Shown here: positions 1,028 to 54,217 of the stretch, in pieces
How the letters are laid out: each line of letters begins with the position of its first letter
How positions within the stretch are numbered: the first letter of the stretch is position 1
NCBI GenBank assembly: GCA_947494195.1
Contig: CANLUC010000005.1
Coordinates: 62,001-126,000 of the forward strand
From: an uncultured Nesterenkonia sp.
GTDB taxonomy: Bacteria; Actinomycetota; Actinomycetes; Actinomycetales; Micrococcaceae
Reading direction: 5' to 3'
DNA: 64,000 nt
Made by a program: the position numbers and the translations under genes
Notes under the pieces: generated by a model
Seen by the model: the letters and a program-made list of their open reading frames with translations, nothing else
What the model was told of the DNA's origin: nothing
Database searches by the model: none

Positions 1028-1573
1028 CTACTCCGTGTGGGAAAACTCTACCTGCACTCGCGCCTGGGTGATCGACGCGAAACCGATCTCCGTGGGATCC
1101 GCATACTTCACCGGCATGCCCTTCTTGGGCGCAGGCTTCTGCTCGGCCACCGTGATGGAGTCGTCGCTGACCGCGGTGAGCCGGGCCAGCATCGGGCTGC
1201 CTCCGGTCGGGGTGATCTCCAGCAGCCGGCCGAGGTTGCGCTCGAAGTGCCGGGGCTCGGTGAGCGGACGGGTCGCCCCCGGGGTGGAGACCTCCAGCTC
1301 GTAGCTGTCCAGCTCGGGAAGCACGTCCTCCTCGTCCAGCCGGGCGGAGATCGCCTGGGAGAGGGCGGCGACCGTGTCGAGGTCGACCTGGTCCGTGCCG
1401 GAGGGCAGATCCACGGAGACCTTCAGCGTGGTGGTGCCGCCGCTGGGGCTGAGCTCGAGCTCTTCGAGGAAGAGCCCCTGTTCGGTGACCGTGGGGATGA
1501 TCAGCTCGGCGATCTTCGCGGTGCGGGCATCGGTGAAGCGCTGCGCTCCGGTGGGGCGTGGGGCGATGGCCAT
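1028..1573 (-). CDS. rimP: Ribosome maturation factor RimP
   Basis: RimP helps mature the 30S subunit in the cytoplasm. The 181-residue product shows the N-terminal alpha/beta domain with the signature around LFLEELELSPSGGTTTLKVSVDLPSG and the family core DLDTVAALSQAISARLDEEDVLP followed by YELEVSTPGATRPLTEPRHFERN (the conserved EVSSPG-RPL region). The ATG start has GAGAGGA just upstream. It is the first gene of the rimP-nusA unit, and the palindromic element at 1630-1704 lies in its upstream region, so that element could influence its transcription. Confidence 0.96.
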   Translation of the reverse strand: MAIAPRPTGAQRFTDARTAKIAELIIPTVTEQGLFLEELELSPSGGTTTLKVSVDLPSGTDQVDLDTVAALSQAISARLDEEDVLPELDSYELEVSTPGATRPLTEPRHFERNLGRLLEITPTGGSPMLARLTAVSDDSITVAEQKPAPKKGMPVKYADPTEIGFASITQARVQVEFSHTE

Positions 1574-1629
1574 GACGGTCCTCTCAGTGGCGGGTGGTGC
1601 GTCTCCATTGTGCCTGAGACCTCCCCTCC

Positions 1630-1704
1630 GCGTTTTACCTCCCCTTACGTGTTCTACCCGCCCGGCGGTCGGCCGGGTAAAACGCGTCCGCGCCGGTAAA
1701 ACGC
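1630..1704. repeat. Palindromic repeat family A, copy 1 (75 bp)
   Basis: Ends in the 10-bp inverted repeat GCGTTTTACC / GGTAAAACGC. An inner stem TACCCG...CGGGTA lies near the centre. The same 75-bp length and ends recur at 2995-3069 and 5804-5878. This copy contains the last 22 or so codons and the TAA stop of the leftward nuclease gene, the stop being the TAA in the GGTAAAACGC arm as read on the minus strand. An extra internal GTAAAACGC copy is present around 1676-1685. Confidence 0.9.
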
Positions 1705-2921
1705 TGGGACAAGGGGACGCCGGCGGTGCTGAGCAGACGCCGGAGGCGAGAGGGGTCTTGCAGGTCAGCCCAGGTGAAACGCAGGACGGTCAGCCCGAGG
1801 GCGCGCAGCCCGTCCTCACGCTCCTTCTCCGCGATCACCACCTCCTCGGCGCTCCGGCCCGAGAGCGCCCTCGAGGTCCGGTACTTCAAGAGCCCGTCGA
1901 ATTCGCCGACGACGCCCGGACCCTCCCAGAAGAAATCAGTGATGCAGGACCGCCCGTTCGGCAGTTGGAACATGCGCTGCAGGATCGGGGCCGCGAATCC
2001 CAGTTCAGCGATGCGCACCCGCGACCAGGACTCCCCCACAGATTCCGCCCCTCCGTCGGCGAAGTGCCATGCCGCGTCCCAGCGCACGCGGCCTCGCGCC
2101 GATGCCACCAGACGCAGCGAGGGTTCAACCAGGGAGAGAGTTCCTGGCGGGTGCCGGCGCTCGCCTACGCGTCCCGCCTTGTACGCGTCGAGCACCACCA
2201 CCGCATCCGCGAAACCCAGACGGGGCACGGTGTCGGCCAGCACCAGGCCCAGCGGTTCCACGTAGATGCCCTGTGCTGCTGTGCTCTGCCCGTCGAAGGT
2301 CTCCAGATTCGGAAAGGGATACCGGAGCACTGCCTGCTCGTAGCCGGGTTTCCATTCCTCCCCGAGTCCGCCCCGCAGCCGGTCTCGGAGGGTGCGCGGG
2401 TACTGATGGTGACGGGTTCCGATGGCGCGCAGCGATGCGGGACTCCGCGCGCCGCCGTCGTGCGCCTGCTTATGAGCCCGCAGGAGACGTTCGGTCGCGG
2501 TGGTGGAGGCTCGACCGGTCAGCGCGGGCGCCGGGTGGAAGCCACTCTCCGAGTTGCGCGTAGTGCGCACCGTCACGGCGTCGGGAGGGTGCAGCAGCCC
2601 GATCCCATGCAGCGCCAGTGCGGTCGTCCGGCAGAAATGCGTCTCCGGTGCCAGCAGATGCACGGCCGCTGCGGCGATCAGGAGGCGGTCCCAGGACGCC
2701 GTCTCCAGCCAGGTGGAAGGATGGAGGTAGATGCCGCGGCGGATGCGCAACAGCTCTCCGGCGTCGACCAGCGCGCTGAGCCGACGACCGATCCCCTCCA
2801 CATCGCTGCCTGCCCAGGCACCGGCACCCGGTCCGGCACGAGAGCTGTCCCAGAGATCCTTGGCACGAAAGAGACGACCGCGTGGCAGTGCGATGGCGAG
2901 TGGGGTGAGGTGTGCAGCCAT
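1635..2921 (-). CDS. AbiEi-type N-terminal domain fused to Vsr/DUF559-like nuclease domain
   Basis: 428 residues, no assigned pathway. The N-terminal half (about 40-130) has the winged-helix pattern of AbiEi-type proteins: IGRRLSALVDAGELLRIRRGIYLHP, then THFCRTTALALHGIGLL. The C-terminal part (about 295-390) matches the PD-(D/E)XK-like Vsr/DUF559 group: GESWSRVRIAELGF, TDFFWE (D329), VGEFDG (E340, D342), K346 and EKEREDGLRALG. Such proteins are common and multicopy in Actinobacteria; whether they are antitoxins, nucleases or mobile-element proteins is unsettled. The gene lies between two family A palindromes and its last 22 residues and stop are encoded by one of them. It sits between rimP and proS, interrupting two housekeeping transcription units. 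Confidence 0.75.
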   Translation of the reverse strand: MAAHLTPLAIALPRGRLFRAKDLWDSSRAGPGAGAWAGSDVEGIGRRLSALVDAGELLRIRRGIYLHPSTWLETASWDRLLIAAAAVHLLAPETHFCRTTALALHGIGLLHPPDAVTVRTTRNSESGFHPAPALTGRASTTATERLLRAHKQAHDGGARSPASLRAIGTRHHQYPRTLRDRLRGGLGEEWKPGYEQAVLRYPFPNLETFDGQSTAAQGIYVEPLGLVLADTVPRLGFADAVVVLDAYKAGRVGERRHPPGTLSLVEPSLRLVASARGRVRWDAAWHFADGGAESVGESWSRVRIAELGFAAPILQRMFQLPNGRSCITDFFWEGPGVVGEFDGLLKYRTSRALSGRSAEEVVIAEKEREDGLRALGLTVLRFTWADLQDPSRLRRLLSTAGVPLSQRFTGADAFYPADRRAGRTRKGR

Positions 2922-2994
2922 GGGAGAAGCCTGCTCCTGTCACGACACTCCGCGAGTGAAGTCGGCCGCACTGTGGATAACCCTCCCCGCCCTC

Positions 2995-3069
2995 GCGTTT
3001 TACCTCCCCATCCGAGGAATACCGGGCCGACGGTCACCCGGGTAAAGCACGCAAGGGGCGGTAGAACGC
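2995..3069. repeat. Palindromic repeat family A, copy 2 (75 bp)
   Basis: Starts GCGTTTTACC and ends GGTAGAACGC, one base off the exact inverted repeat. The outer stem extends through TCCCC/GGGGC, and the inner stem is TACCGGG/CCGGGTA. It lies 73 bases upstream of the nuclease start at 2921 and 64 bases upstream of the proposed proS start. Together with copy 1 it brackets the nuclease gene. Confidence 0.9.
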
Positions 3070-3133
3070 CCGGGAGCCGGTGCCCCTTAGACTTGGGCCG
3101 GTAGAAGATCCCTCACCGGAAACGAGAACACCT

Positions 3134-4957
3134 GTGCCGCTCCGCCTGTCCCACCTGTTCCTCCGCACGCTGCGCGACAATCCGGCAGATGCCGAGGTCG
3201 CCAGCCACCAGCTGCTGGTCCGCGCCGGCTACATCCGCCGCGCCGCGCCTGGCGTCTACACCTGGCTGCCGCTGGGGCTGACCGTGCTGCGGAAGATCGA
3301 GGAGATCGTCCGCGAGGAGATGCACCGGATCGGCGCCCAGGAGGTCCACTTCCCTGCCCTGCTGCCCAAGGAGCCCTACGAGGCCACCGGCCGCTGGGAC
3401 GACTACGGCGACGGCATCTTCCGGCTCAAGGACCGCAAAGAGGCGGACTACCTGCTCGCGCCCACCCATGAGGAGGTCTTCACCCTGCTGGTGAAGGACC
3501 TCTACAGCTCCTATAAGGACCTGCCGCTCTCGATCTACCAGATCCAGACCAAGTACCGCGACGAAGCACGCCCCCGGGCGGGCCTGCTCCGCGGACGCGA
3601 GTTCATCATGAAGGACTCCTACTCCTTCGCGCTGACCGAAGAGGACCAGCGCGCGGCCTATGACGCCCACCGCGAGGCCTACCTGCGCATCTTCGACCGG
3701 CTCGGGCTGCCCGTGGTTCCGGTCAACGCGGTCTCCGGTGCGATGGGCGGCTCCGCCTCGGAGGAGTTCCTCTTCCCCTGCGACATCGGCGAGGACACCT
3801 TCGTGGAGTCCGACGGCGGCTTCCGCGCCAACGTCGAGGCCGTCACCACGCCGACGCCGGAGCCCATCGACCACACGAACCTGCCCGCCGCGCAGGTGCA
3901 TCACACCCCCGGCACCAACACCATCGCGACCCTGGTCGACGCCGCGAACACCGATCAGCCCCGGGACGACCGGGCTTGGACCGCCGCGGACACGTTGAAG
4001 AACGTGGTCGTCGCGGCCGTGCTGCCCGATGGTTCACGGCGCATCGTGGTCCTGGGCGTGCCCGGTGACCGCGAGGTGGATCTCAAGCGCGCCGAGGCCA
4101 CCATCGGCGGACTCATCGGTGTGGGCGGCGAGGTGGCCCTGGAAGCCGCCAACGAGGCTGACCTGAAGAAGAACCCCGGACTGGTCCGCGGCTACATCGG
4201 CCCCGGCCTGGCCCTGGACGCCCCCGTCCTCGGCAATGAGGGCAGCACCGGGATCACCTACCTCGTGGATCCCCGCGTGGTGGCCGGCAGCAGCTGGATC
4301 ACCGGCGCCAACGAGGCCGATCAGCACGTGTTCGGCCTGGTGGCCGGGCGCGACTTCGGCTGGGACGGCATCATCGAGGCCGTCGTCGTCCAAGAGGGCG
4401 ATCCGGCCCCCGACGGCTCGGGCCCGCTGCGCACCCGTCGCGGCATCGAGATGGGACACATCTTCCATCTGGGCACCCGCTACGCCGAGGCGCTGGGCCT
4501 GCAGGTCCTCGACGTCAACGGCAAGCTCGCCACCGTGACCATGGGCTCCTACGGCTTCGGCGTCACCCGCGCGCTGGCGGCCATCGCCGAGGCCACGCAT
4601 GACGAGAAGGGCCTGATCTGGCCCGCCGCGATCGCTCCCGCCGATGTGCACCTGGTCGCCACCGGCAAGGGTGACGAGGTCTACGCCGCCGCCGAGTCGC
4701 TGATCACCCAGCTCGAAGAGGCCGGCCTCAGCGTGATCTACGACGATCGTCCCAAGGTGTCCCCCGGCGTGAAGTTCGGCGACGCCGAGCTGCTCGGGGT
4801 GCCGATGCTGGTCACCGTGGGCCGCGGTCTGAAGAACGGCACGATCGAGCTCAAGGATCGCCGCTCGGGCGAATCTCATGAGGTCCCCGTGGAGGAAGCC
4901 GCCGCGGCGGTGCTCGACCACGTCCAGGGCCTGCACGACGTCCAAGGCGCGCGCTGA
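3134..4957 (+). CDS. proS: Prolyl-tRNA synthetase (ProS, bacterial long type)
   Basis: Charges tRNA-Pro with proline in the cytoplasm. Class II motifs are clear: motif 1 region [20 protein letters not shown], the TxE loop [10 protein letters not shown], motif 2 [25 protein letters not shown], and motif 3 [13 protein letters not shown]. An insertion (editing) domain lies between motifs 2 and 3 (about residues 215-385), as expected for the bacterial type. I chose the GTG at 3134 ([16 protein letters not shown]...) because the family begins near LRxSxLFLRTLR; an upstream in-frame start at 3080 would add 18 residues read partly from near the palindromic repeat. About 607 residues. Confidence 0.96.
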
Positions 4958-5016
4958 GCGAAGCCCTCGAGGCTGCCACTGACTTCCTGGTCGGGGGCAG
5001 CCTCGAGATCACCTGG

Positions 5017-5781
5017 GTGACCCTGCTGCTGCTCATCGCCGCAGGCTTCGCAGCCGGGTGGGTGGACGCCGTCGTCGGCGGGGGCGGTCTGCTGCAGCTG
5101 CCCGCGATGCTGATGATTCCGGGGATCACCCCGGTGCAGGCGCTGGCCACGAACAAACTCGGCTCGATCTTCGGCACGACGACGTCGGCGATCACCTATG
5201 CCCGGCGGGTGAAGCCGGCGATGGGCACGGCCCTCCCGATGGCACTGGCCGCGCTGCTGGCCAGCTACTGCGGCGCCGTCGTCGCCGCGTCGCTGCCGGA
5301 GCAGATCATCCTGCCGCTGATCCTGCTGGCGCTGATCGGCGTCGGCGTGTTCACCGCGGTCCGCCCCCAGGTGGGCCAGCTGGAGAAGCTGCGCCACGTG
5401 GGCATGGGGCACCTGGCGCGGGCCGTCATGATCGGCATGATCCTGGGCTTCTACGACGGCGTGCTCGGACCCGGCACCGGAACGTTCCTGGTCATCGCAC
5501 TGGTCACCGTGCTGGGCTACAACTTCCTGAACTCCTCCGCGCAGGCCAAGGTGGTCAACGTGGCCACCAACCTCGGCGCGCTGCTCTACTTCGCGCCCGC
5601 CGGGCACGTGCTGCTGGGCCTGGGCCTGGTGCTCGGCGCGGCGAACATGGCCGGCGGCTACCTCGGCGCGCGGATGGCGATCGCCAAGGGCTCGAAATTC
5701 ATCCGAGTGGTGTTCCTGATCGTCGTCTTCGCCCTGGTGATCAAGCTGGGCTACGACGTCGCCGTCGACCTCTTCGGCTGA
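5017..5781 (+). CDS. TauE/SafE family membrane permease
   Basis: 254-residue integral membrane protein of the TauE/SafE (sulfite/organosulfonate exporter-like) group. It shows the two-repeat architecture of the family: AGWVDAVVGGGGLLQLPAMLMIPGITPVQALATNKLGS in the N-terminal half and GFYDGVLGPGTGTFLVIALVTVLGYNFLNSSAQAKVVNVATNLGAL in the second, with about eight hydrophobic segments. The GTG at 5017 is the only usual start codon in frame after proS ends at 4957. It follows proS closely on the same strand, so co-transcription is plausible but functionally unexplained. Substrate unknown; sulfur oxyanions or small organic acids are typical. Confidence 0.85.
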   Translation: MTLLLLIAAGFAAGWVDAVVGGGGLLQLPAMLMIPGITPVQALATNKLGSIFGTTTSAITYARRVKPAMGTALPMALAALLASYCGAVVAASLPEQIILPLILLALIGVGVFTAVRPQVGQLEKLRHVGMGHLARAVMIGMILGFYDGVLGPGTGTFLVIALVTVLGYNFLNSSAQAKVVNVATNLGALLYFAPAGHVLLGLGLVLGAANMAGGYLGARMAIAKGSKFIRVVFLIVVFALVIKLGYDVAVDLFG

Positions 5782-5803: not shown

Positions 5804-5878
5804 GCGTTTTACCCCCTCCCGCGAGTTATACCCGTCTGACCGTACCCGGGGTAAAGCACGAAAGGGGAGGTAAAACGC
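5804..5878. repeat. Palindromic repeat family A, copy 3 (75 bp)
   Basis: Has the ends GCGTTTTACC / GGTAAAACGC, with CCCTCCC/GGGGAGG extending the outer stem and TACCCG/CGGGGTA as inner stem. It lies between the 3' ends of the convergent genes ending at 5781 and 5889, with no nuclease gene beside it (an orphan copy). It could also serve as a bidirectional terminator. Confidence 0.88.
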
Positions 5879-26750: not shown

Positions 26751-26822
26751 GTTGAGGGGCGGATTCTCCGAGTACTCGATGCCGTATGCGGCATGAGATG
26801 CTCGGAGAATCCGCCCCTCAAC
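26751..26822. repeat. Palindromic repeat family B, copy 1 (72 bp)
   Basis: Perfect outer stem of 22 bp beginning GTTGAGGGGCGGATTCTCCG, closed by a near-perfect inner hairpin ATGCCG-TATG-CGGCAT. The TGA stop of the leftward nuclease gene (26818-26820) lies inside its terminal arm. It also sits between convergent genes (actP ending at 26736). Confidence 0.92.
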
Positions 26823-27840
26823 TGTGTGTGGGCAGCTGCGGCGGGCACCAGCCGCGCTGCAGCAGGGCTCGCTGGATCCGCGCGATCGCGAGACGCCCCT
26901 GATCGGCCATGTGGTCCTGGGTGATCCGGACCTCCATCCAGCCCAGCTCCTCGGTGATCTCGCTGCGTCGGACATCCTTGCGGACGCTCGCCGGGGAGGA
27001 ATGAAAGTCCTCACCCTCGTACTGGATGGACACCTTGAACTCCTTCACCGCCAGATCCGGTTCGAACCAGGGGTGGCCGCTGGGGTGAGCAATCACCGGG
27101 TTGACTCGCGGTTCGGGCAGACCCGCCAAGTGCATGTAATAGCGCAGACGCGTCTCCTGAGGAGAGTCAGACCCGACGCGGATGAGCTCCAGCACCTCAC
27201 GTACCTGCCGGATCCCCTTGGTGCGGCCCCGGACGACGGCGACCTGGCGCAGCTCGGACAGTGTGGCCAGAGGAGCCCCCTCCTCCCCGTATTCGCGCCG
27301 TGGGCGGCGCACCGCACGGTCACCGAGAATGAGAGCCTGCTCCAAGGGTCGATGGAGCGCGAGATCCAGCCAGGTCCATGCCGGGTGGGTGAGCCGGACG
27401 CCGTCGAGCGTCACGATGAATCTCTCGGGGACCTCGATGCGGTGCCCGAGGACCAGGCCGGGCCGCTCCACTCGTGGTCCATCGCGCGGACTCGTGACAT
27501 GAAATGGCGGCCCCGGCTCTCCCGGCAGCAGACCCCACTGCACCGCCGCAGTGTCGAAACTGATCACCCGGTCGGAATCTTCGGTGAGTCCCTGCAGCAG
27601 CGCCTGGGCCGCTGACCCACCAAGGACTTCCGGCCCACCAGGGATCCCGTCGATGCCGGGAAGCCCGGTGCCGGCGTAGATGCCATGGGCGACGCGGCGG
27701 ATCAGACCGTTGGCCGCAGAGTGTTCGAGGTCTCGGCGGGTCAGCTCCCCCTCCAGCAGGCCCGCCCGGCGTCGGCCCATCGCGGGCATGATCACCGCGG
27801 GGCGTCGTCGACGGTCGGGAGGATGGCTGAGGAGTTCCAC
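26818..27840 (-). CDS. AbiEi-like protein with C-terminal DUF559/Vsr-like nuclease domain
   Basis: About 340 residues. The N-terminal part (about 25-115) has the AbiEi-like pattern ELTRRDLEHSAANGLIRRVAHGIYAGTG. The C-terminal part (about 225-335) is DUF559/Vsr-like: SPQETRLRYYMHLAGLPEPRVNPVI (E229), WFEPDLAVKEFKVSIQYEGEDFH (D262, Q273, E275, H280) and RRSEITEELGWMEVRIT. It is distant in sequence from the nuclease at 1635-2921 but has the same domain order. Both sides carry a family B palindrome, and the stop codon is inside one. The GTG start lacks a good ribosome site; an ATG at 27789 is an alternative. Function unknown. Confidence 0.72.
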   Translation of the reverse strand: MELLSHPPDRRRRPAVIMPAMGRRRAGLLEGELTRRDLEHSAANGLIRRVAHGIYAGTGLPGIDGIPGGPEVLGGSAAQALLQGLTEDSDRVISFDTAAVQWGLLPGEPGPPFHVTSPRDGPRVERPGLVLGHRIEVPERFIVTLDGVRLTHPAWTWLDLALHRPLEQALILGDRAVRRPRREYGEEGAPLATLSELRQVAVVRGRTKGIRQVREVLELIRVGSDSPQETRLRYYMHLAGLPEPRVNPVIAHPSGHPWFEPDLAVKEFKVSIQYEGEDFHSSPASVRKDVRRSEITEELGWMEVRITQDHMADQGRLAIARIQRALLQRGWCPPQLPTHS

Positions 27841-27957
27841 ACGGCCCAGTCAATGCCTCGTCGGATGAGCTCGCGGCGCCGGACATCGAGCTGTGGAGAA
27901 CAGAGGGTTTCACGCCGCAGCGGTGAACCCCTGGGGAAATCCACCGCCGCTACTCGC

Positions 27958-28029
27958 GTTGAGCGGCGGATTCTCCGAACAGTTGGGGGCTACTTCCGCA
28001 TGAGGTACCCGTAAATTCCGCCGCTCAGC
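27958..28029. repeat. Palindromic repeat family B, copy 2 (72 bp, one arm decayed)
   Basis: Left arm GTTGAGCGGCGGATTCTCCG is intact; the right arm ends CCGCCGCTCAGC but has several mismatches inside. It lies 118 bases upstream of the nuclease start at 27840 and 22 bases after the DivIVA-like stop, so it is the second bracket of the nuclease gene. Confidence 0.85.
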
Positions 28030-33175: not shown

Positions 33176-33766
33176 ATGAACGCTGTTGAGCCTGGTCCTC
33201 CCCGGCAGCGACCGGAGTTTCGACGCCGGCTCCCGGGGCTCCTCCTGCTTCTGCTGGTCGTGGCGCTGGCGACTTCCTCGGCTGGGCCGCTCGCGGCCTC
33301 GGGGGTAGGTTCATCCCCGGACTCGGACTCGCCCATCGGCCAGCAGCTCCAGGGCCTCTGGCGCAGTCCCGTGACGGCGGCGGAGCTCCGTCCCTTCGCA
33401 GCTCCGCCGTCCCCCTGGGGCGCCGGCCACCGCGGGGTGGATCTGGGCCCGCTCACAGCAGGCGCCACCATTCGCGCCCCTGCTGATGGTCACGTGAGCT
33501 TCGCCGGGGTGGTGGTGGACCGTCCCGTGCTCTCCATCGACCACGGATCGGGGTACCTGAGCTCCTTCGAACCGGTGGAGGGGTCCCTGGAGGTCGGCGA
33601 CATGGTCTCCGCAGGCGATCCGGTGGGAACCCTTGCTCCGGGCAGAGGTCACTGCACAGCACCCTGCCTGCACTGGGGTGTGCGCCTGCACGGGGAGTAC
33701 GTCAACCCGCTGCTGCTCACCGGGGACGTCGAGCCTTCAGTGCTGCTCCCTCTGAGCGAGCGATGA
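33176..33766 (+). CDS. M23-family (LytM) metallopeptidase, exported
   Basis: 196 residues. Signal sequence of Arg-rich start and LLLLLLVVALATSSAG, then a short M23 domain. Metal ligands: GHRGVDLG (H85, D89) and HWGVR (H166). The usual HxH is CLH here, a variant common in actinobacterial family members. Predicted to cut peptidoglycan peptides, or to act as an activator. Divergent from rpsB, as often in Actinobacteria. The end of this gene (33731-33766) is repeated in diverged form at 37148-37183, the other side of the accessory island. ATG chosen because the signal peptide begins there. Confidence 0.87.
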   Translation: MNAVEPGPPRQRPEFRRRLPGLLLLLLVVALATSSAGPLAASGVGSSPDSDSPIGQQLQGLWRSPVTAAELRPFAAPPSPWGAGHRGVDLGPLTAGATIRAPADGHVSFAGVVVDRPVLSIDHGSGYLSSFEPVEGSLEVGDMVSAGDPVGTLAPGRGHCTAPCLHWGVRLHGEYVNPLLLTGDVEPSVLLPLSER

Positions 33767-33785
33767 TGCCGGCCATGACGAGTTC
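33760..33785. repeat. 26-bp direct repeat, left boundary of island
   Basis: Identical to 37177-37202 (begins GCGATGATGCCGGCCATGAC). Similarity extends 29 bases further left with six mismatches, into the M23 coding end. Candidate attachment-site duplication. Confidence 0.8.
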
Positions 33786-37129: not shown

Positions 37130-37177
37130 AACCCCGACTACTTAACCGAGCCCTCCGTGCTGCCCCCGCTGGGCTAG
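37130..37177 (+). pseudogene. Remnant of an M23 peptidase 3' end
   Basis: Reading the frame into the right repeat gives NPDYLTEPSVLPPLG and a TAG stop, which parallels NPLLLTGDVEPSVLLPLSER at the end of the intact M23 gene at 33176-33766. Only the last 15 or so codons remain, with 6 mismatches in 55 bases at DNA level. It marks the right edge of the island. Confidence 0.55.
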
Positions 37178-37202
37178 CGATGATGCCGGCCATGACGAGT
37201 TC
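37177..37202. repeat. 26-bp direct repeat, right boundary of island
   Basis: Exact copy of 33760-33785. Lies 75 bases before the FUSC gene start. Confidence 0.8.
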
Positions 37203-47719: not shown

Positions 47720-47791
47720 GCTGAGGGGCGGATTCTCCGACTAGTTTGACCCGATTTGGGGGTCAGATACCCGGAGATTCCGCCCCTCAAC
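47720..47791. repeat. Palindromic repeat family B, copy 3 (72 bp)
   Basis: Arms GCTGAGGGGCGGATTCTCCG and the complement ending CCGCCCCTCAAC, inner stem TGACCC...GGGTCA. Between the convergent Hsp20 and purU genes; no nuclease gene nearby. Confidence 0.88.
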
Positions 47792-54146: not shown

Positions 54147-54217
54147 GTTGAGCGGCGGATTCTCCGAGCAGTTGAGGCCGAAAAGGCCCAAACCAGTCGG
54201 AGAATCCGCCGCTCAAC
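54147..54217. repeat. Palindromic repeat family B, copy 4 (71 bp)
   Basis: Perfect 21-bp outer stem (GTTGAGCGGCGGATTCTCCG and complement) and inner stem GGCC-GAAAA-GGCC. Between the convergent hypothetical gene and gltA. Confidence 0.9.

Follow-up and report, generated by a model that had tools for sequence, protein, structure and literature searches.

Why should a gene for an AbiEi-like nuclease lie between two copies of one palindrome, and a second, nuclease-like gene on the same DNA lie between two copies of an unrelated one? The window analysed here is a stretch of 64,000 nucleotides from an uncultured Nesterenkonia sp. (genome G000 among the 30 genomes of the genus compared below). The two genes are referred to as nuclease A and nuclease B and their palindromes as family A and family B.

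Nuclease genes and palindromes in the window

The features of the nuclease B locus, together with the further family B copies of the window, are as follows.

26818 to 27840, minus strand: nuclease B, 340 aa, with an AbiEi-like N-terminal region and a Vsr/MTES_1575-type C-terminal nuclease domain
26751 to 26822, minus strand: family B palindrome on the stop-codon side of nuclease B, 72 nt, stop inside the arm
27958 to 28029, minus strand: family B palindrome on the start-codon side of nuclease B, 72 nt
47720 to 47791, minus strand: isolated family B palindrome, intergenic; of the 9 regions compared (the window among them), 8 have a copy at the corresponding position
54147 to 54217, no strand: isolated family B palindrome between convergent genes; here too 8 of the 9 regions (the window among them) have a copy at the corresponding position

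Both palindromes around nuclease B (26751–26822 and 27958–28029) are located where the preliminary description of this DNA had placed them, and reading of the sequence bears out its claim that the TGA stop codon of the gene lies inside the GTTGAG arm. The left copy is paired at 22 of its 22 outer positions and folds as DNA with −37.8 kcal/mol (z −13.7), while the right copy is a less perfect palindrome (z −3.7 in the DNA fold). The two isolated copies at 47720–47791 and 54147–54217 are additions to that description. In an initial collection of 23 distinct family B copies the lengths are 71–72 nt. The arrangement had been thought hard to explain by chance, and a chance origin is indeed excluded, as GGCGGATTCTCCG with at most one mismatch is present 62 times in the genome and 7 times in the reversed control. 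The neighbours of nuclease B are what we take to be a symporter-like gene and a DivIVA-like gene.

The nuclease A locus is organized in the same manner.

1635 to 2921, minus strand: nuclease A, 428 aa, with an AbiEi-like N-terminal region and a putative nuclease domain (conserved residues, weak DUF559 matches in relatives)
1630 to 1704, minus strand: family A palindrome on the stop-codon side of nuclease A, 75 nt, stop inside the arm
2995 to 3069, plus strand: family A palindrome on the start-codon side of nuclease A, with an almost ambiguous orientation
5804 to 5878, plus strand: isolated family A palindrome, with no counterpart at the same site in G004, G023 and G020

The TAA stop of nuclease A (1635–1637) lies within the GCGTTTTACC arm that begins at 1630, as had been claimed. 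The stop codon inside the terminal arm is thus a property of both nuclease genes of the window, but it does not hold as a general rule across loci, where the palindrome usually starts about 30 nt or less from the stop. The isolated copy at 5804–5878 had not been noted before. Arms of family A are unrelated to those of family B and all family A copies in the window are exactly 75 nt long. The constant lengths (75 nt in family A and 71–72 nt in family B) indicate that both are elements of fixed size.

Residues 33–163 of nuclease B match the AbiEi models of PADLOC (E 7e-9) and residues 263–326 match the Pfam model MTES_1575 (REase) with 25 bits, below the cut-off of 38.2. MTES_1575, described in the available text of one study as a Vsr-fold REase (PMC3710099), is matched by 20 of the 21 aligned nuclease B members (B included), AbiEi_1 by 4 of the 21 and, in the C-terminal domain, vsr by 2 and DUF559 by 1. 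Invariant residues in the C-terminal domain include E229, D262, H280 and D289, which may form the active site. For nuclease A, Pfam gives AbiEi_4 as the sole match (23.3 bits, below the 25-bit cut-off) and no nuclease domain. We call it a nuclease because DUF559 is weakly matched in 2 of the 10 A-type proteins scanned, both below cut-off, and because E297, D329, E340, D342 and K346 are invariant in 9 aligned A-type relatives. The same domain order, earlier ascribed to both proteins, is thus weakly supported. The two proteins are almost unalignable (25% over 145 residues, E 0.035). Among close relatives dN/dS is 0.17–0.28 for nuclease B and 0.20–0.23 for nuclease A, so both proteins are under purifying selection. 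A profile search against solved structures gave no credible match (best E 0.31).

Folding differs between the families. Family B folds strongly as DNA (z −3.7 to −13.7), unlike family A, for which hairpin folding is poor (z −1.3 to −2.9). Covariation does not rise above shuffles in the alignment of either family and was rejected as evidence that a hairpin is under selection; in family B, numerous exchanges between G-C and C-G are confined to columns 7/66 (9 and 7 of 21). Owing to the poor folding of family A and the covariation at the level of shuffles, it is as likely that a duplex inverted repeat is recognised as a hairpin.

Distribution and stability of the palindromes

The covariance model of family B finds 50 matches in G000, which correspond to about 25 elements because hairpins are counted on both strands; the set of 25 leaves out two weak candidates (score 27). 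With neighbouring genes called by a simple composition rule, 20 of the 25 elements are positioned −5 to 42 nt from a stop codon, two are present between divergent genes and three have an ambiguous neighbouring start. Several are paired 0.5–2.5 kb apart with a gene between them. A further nuclease of the same genome (C1:121925) has a family of its own, family C, with ten arm matches in G000 (one in the reversed control), a fixed 43-nt offset in four elements and 1–5 matches in seven relatives. REP-like dispersed copies in the genome of the nuclease are therefore extragenic for family B, and dispersal is also seen for family C, for family D (described below) and for two Arthrobacter families. 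No flanking palindromes were found at another homologue in G000 (L032, C2:381300).

Homologues of nuclease B are present in 28 of the 30 genomes. The close B clade occupies one syntenic place, between the symporter-like and DivIVA-like genes, in G000, G009, G024, G023, G004 and G019, and is broken in G025. Family B matches number 54 in G009, 51 in G024, 50 in G000, 44 in G004, 42 in G023, 36 in G019, 34 in G020, 32 in G012 and 30 in G025, and 0–3 in the other 21 genomes; counts of families A and B are possible floors, the best 150 of about 1,500 to 5,100 first-look candidates having been scored per genome. Family B is hence abundant in all seven genomes with nuclease B or a broken copy and in 2 of the 23 others, namely G012 and G020. 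At the nuclease B locus these two carry nuclease remnants along with two palindromes and one palindrome, respectively. The three genomes with a ruined nuclease have the three lowest family B counts among the nine B-rich ones (1 of 84 permutations). In the outgroups G002 and G028 both neighbour genes are present, with neither nuclease B nor a family B palindrome between them. Other inverted repeats are located at this place in both (L108 in G002 and L105 in G028), and are perhaps terminators or further palindrome families.

Nuclease A (at least 63% identity) is present in G000, G009, G024, G012, G020 and G019, in which family A has 35, 36, 36, 40, 4 and 36 matches, respectively. Elsewhere family A has 0–2 matches except in G017, and it has none in the B-rich genomes G004, G023 and G025. 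Taking at least 30 matches as abundant, family A is abundant in 5 of the 6 genomes with nuclease A and in none of the 24 others. The exception is G020, where nuclease A is present and the only copies picked up by the model are the two flanking ones, both divergent. G017 has 13 weak matches (best E 3.5e-6) without a close nuclease A. Family D has 23 and 26 matches in G001 and G029, whose nucleases it flanks, and 0–1 in the other 28 genomes (reversed control 0–5). Fisher tests give 1.8e-5 for family B (7/7 versus 2/23), 4.2e-5 for family A (5/6 versus 0/24) and 0.0023 for family D; as the genomes are related, these tests amount to about three independent events. The proposal that each nuclease has its own palindrome thus agrees with the distribution over the 30 genomes, in which the occurrence of family A, B or D goes with that of the corresponding nuclease.

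Positions of family B are old and mostly stable. All 25 copies in G000 have flank matches at copies in G009, two of them sharing one G009 copy, and for the copies at 47.7 and 54.1 kb a counterpart is present in 8 of the 9 regions (the window among them). Flanks of these two were not found in the G024 stretch, and two G024 copies with a spacing of 6.4 kb are present farther along. No recent clean insertion of a palindrome was found in the genomes compared.

A polymorphic site is located behind a gene which, from its translation, we take to be glmM. The copy is present in G009, G024, G012, G023 and G025 and missing in G000 and G019, and arm remnants are seen in G004 and G020. A recent gain in G009 was rejected since four other B-clade genomes share the copy; its retention there indicates a loss in G000 rather than a gain in G009. 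This is the single polymorphic site that could be polarised, and the change is a loss. No flank of the glmM site was found in the 100 kb of G024 searched, and a target-site duplication, looked for at the A5804 and glmM sites, was found at neither. Behind glmM in G005 (L328) a palindrome is present which by eye resembles the A-type family flanking G005's own nuclease, and suggests an independent arrival. At the same site in G023 (L323) two short left-arm fragments of family B stand in tandem and are followed by a full palindrome.

Some of the palindrome pairs enclose other genes. In G000 (C4:182654–185191; L304 2155–4692) two B palindromes bracket a 707-aa gene of secreted type with low third-codon GC, and the matching site in G009 (L308 2123–2194) has a single B palindrome with the outer flanks joined; this difference suggests that cassettes are gained or lost by recombination between palindromes. 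In a stretch of G020 C8 (L184), at the site of the 47720 copy, two B palindromes 1.1 kb apart bracket genes that by eye are TetR-like and VOC-like. In G001 and G029 (L103, L104) a similar TetR-like/VOC-like pair occupies the place, flanked by the symporter-like and DivIVA-like genes, that nuclease B takes elsewhere.

Matched flanks of homologous nucleases

Bracketing extends well beyond the window. Our wide set consists of the best 80 of 187 loci in Micrococcales and draws on Nesterenkonia, Garicola, Arthrobacter, Sinomonas, Tersicoccus, Paenarthrobacter, Pseudarthrobacter, Micrococcus, Brachybacterium, Cryobacterium and others. The preliminary description had expected palindromes beside homologues elsewhere, and matched ones are present at 54 of these 80 loci (upstream–downstream flank match of 22 or more), as compared with 2.0% of the pairs formed across loci. 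At a flank match of at least 25 the corresponding values are 49 of the best 80 loci and 1.3%. No matched pair was found at the remaining 26 of the 80.

Within the genus, where flanks slightly different from those of the wide set were taken, they are matched at 22 of 32 B-type loci and 17 of 29 A-type loci (29 of 30 used, one short locus being omitted), and at 0 of 21 loci of a control gene; 10 B-type and 12 A-type loci have no matched pair. This control-gene test was used in place of an earlier null that included orthologous pairs, under which 0 of 32 own pairs exceeded the 95th percentile. When 30 of the 32 loci were scanned, those of less than 200 aa being left out, 22 had a palindrome with at least 17 of 22 pairs following the stop and 23 had one preceding the start; the maxima of 12 shuffles were 14 and 16. 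The start-side palindrome is usually located 100–250 nt upstream of the nuclease gene.

For the correlation between palindrome and nuclease clade we used the 49 of the best 80 wide loci with a flank match of at least 25, of which 39 have upstream segments palindromic beyond 50 shuffles and 10 do not. A palindrome similarity of at least 20 is seen in 9 of 9 nuclease pairs at 80% identity or more, 10 of 26 at 60–80%, 3 of 28 at 50–60% and 3 of 1113 below 50%. The predicted tracking of nuclease clade by palindrome sequence was recovered in this set, with a low Mantel rho of 0.146 whose observed value was reached in 1 of 5000 permutations. The nuclease of L255 is 77–78% identical to those of L238 and L242, and the palindromes are unrelated. 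Sharing of palindromes between close nucleases may reflect common descent of the locus. A stronger point for pairing is that the two flanks of one locus agree with each other while those of other loci differ. Cognate pairing of nuclease and palindrome is accordingly well supported, and it would be accounted for if each nuclease recognised its own palindrome by binding or cutting it.

Three of four homologue matches in a plasmid collection were examined, all from Arthrobacter, and all three have matched flanks. The palindromes of two nucleases in one Arthrobacter strain occur at 35 and 10 places (both strands counted) and, among 72,556 plasmid records, are confined to the two records of that strain. 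At locus L051 of G014 the palindromes at 624–692 and 2586–2654 have the same outer motif and different inner arms, perhaps a specificity change in progress.

Proposed mechanism and alternatives

We consider it probable, with moderate confidence, that these loci represent a REP-like system made up of chromosomal AbiEi-like/Vsr-type nucleases, each with a palindrome family of its own, constant in length, that it recognises, cuts and spreads in a RAYT-like manner. In such a system the nuclease gene would be enclosed by two palindrome copies, with further ones, from a few to some tens, placed mostly just behind stop codons. The AbiEi-like DNA-binding region of the nuclease would recognise the conserved arms and the nuclease domain would cut or nick the palindrome, in duplex or cruciform form. 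Repair or copying may then spread and homogenise the family, in line with the role proposed for RAYT transposases in REPINs. Recognition, cutting and spreading by the nuclease are thus the conjectural part of this reading. The arrangement of a nuclease with private palindromes suggests that a type of repeat system, selfish or regulatory, has escaped notice. We regard as evenly poised the broader view that REP-like palindromes without a Y1 enzyme are made, spread and kept uniform by domesticated AbiEi-like/Vsr-type nucleases, as coevolving pairs, across the Micrococcales and perhaps other actinobacteria.

The main rival is a regulator, in which the AbiEi-like protein binds the palindromes as operators or 3'-end control sites for itself and a regulon, without mobilising them. 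The AbiEi models matching residues 33–163 of nuclease B fit this role, as do arms that are conserved as sequence with covariation not beyond shuffles, and sites that are stable between genomes and in 20 of 25 cases lie within 42 nt of a stop codon. We nevertheless consider it unlikely, because acidic and His residues are invariant in the conserved nuclease domain of a protein under purifying selection, the start-side copy usually lies 100–250 nt upstream and is accompanied by a second copy behind the gene, and the dispersed sites are found mostly behind genes rather than at promoters. A regulator also leaves unexplained the fixed length of the dispersed copies and the new sequence that comes with each nuclease.

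A defence by self-marking is improbable; in it, DNA would be the target of the nuclease, and the host chromosome would be labelled by its palindromes, either as protected sites or as decoys. No methylase or toxin partner was seen by eye beside the gene in the ORF lists, and 30–34 palindrome matches remain in genomes that have lost the nuclease, although the matching AbiEi models belong to PADLOC and the palindrome families are strain-specific.

It is very improbable that we are dealing with ordinary REP or MITE repeats which a Y1 (RAYT) or other transposase moves, with the nucleases as incidental passengers. The palindromes look and are located like REPs, so far as REPs are described in the available portions of the literature. 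However, the three families follow three nucleases separately, and by the Y1 model, the only one used here, a Y1 enzyme is present in one of the 30 genomes (G010), none of the A-, B- or D-rich ones. RAYT as the mover of the palindromes was rejected, Y1 (PF01797) being missing from the other 29 genomes. Least probable of all are host transcription terminators that flank the nuclease genes by happenstance, for in spite of the position behind stop codons and the strong hairpins of family B, the palindrome sequence goes with the nuclease clade and is seldom or never present in relatives lacking it, and the control gene is not bracketed.

The REP-like reading invites comparison with the REPIN/RAYT system, in which, according to the accessible parts of two studies, the enzyme gene is flanked by palindromes, many extragenic copies of the family are present, pairing is repeat-specific in multi-family genomes and RAYT phylogeny is largely congruent with that of the species (PMC3116915, PMC3733652). 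The nuclease gene is likewise flanked by, and the genome dotted with, extragenic copies of its family. Unlike there, the bracketed gene encodes an AbiEi-like/Vsr-type nuclease and not a Y1 HUH tyrosine transposase, no GTAG/CGTC foot is seen by eye in the alignments of family A or B, and the copy number is in the tens rather than the hundreds. Excision, which they report for REPINs, was not seen here, where losses, remnants and an empty A site in G004, G023 and G020 are observed. Since the Y1 enzyme is missing, the nuclease–palindrome system is not a REPtron member, though it may work alike. CGTC REPs and other untagged palindromic repeats are said, in the part of the source available, to lack a dedicated transposase (PMC3733652); on that account our families resemble them as dispersed palindromes and differ in that each flanks a candidate dedicated enzyme.

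In its N-terminal region, which matches AbiEi models, nuclease B resembles the AbiE antitoxin AbiEi. AbiEi binds inverted repeats at its own promoter. Unlike the type IV AbiE toxin–antitoxin system, a fused nuclease domain and dispersed palindromes are present here, and inspection of the window ORF lists by eye revealed no AbiEii toxin gene beside nuclease A or B; as far as these lists show, it is therefore not an AbiE system. Vsr works in mismatch repair beside a cytosine methylase, whereas the nuclease here is paired with private palindromes and no methylase was seen by eye in the ORF list. Among the literature matches listed, mostly at title or abstract level and from few subscription journals, there was no description of a nuclease–palindrome pairing. 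The loci offer a candidate enzyme for REP-type repeats, with dozens of natural enzyme–palindrome pairs and several per genome, and swapping of pairs allows direct tests of the rules of recognition, of the spread of the palindromes and of what this widespread actinobacterial nuclease family does.

A homologue is also encoded at 4956–5519 of MT837503.1 (H5; 36.6% over 55% of the query), a phage-labelled record of 6.7 kb from human faeces, and is the sole match among 50,697 phage records. In the window itself, a 56-nt direct repeat (33730–33785 and 37147–37202, 89% identical) encloses about 3.4 kb, in which an exonuclease/BRCT-like gene and a coiled-coil type gene of 629 aa were recognised by eye, and looks like an integrated island.
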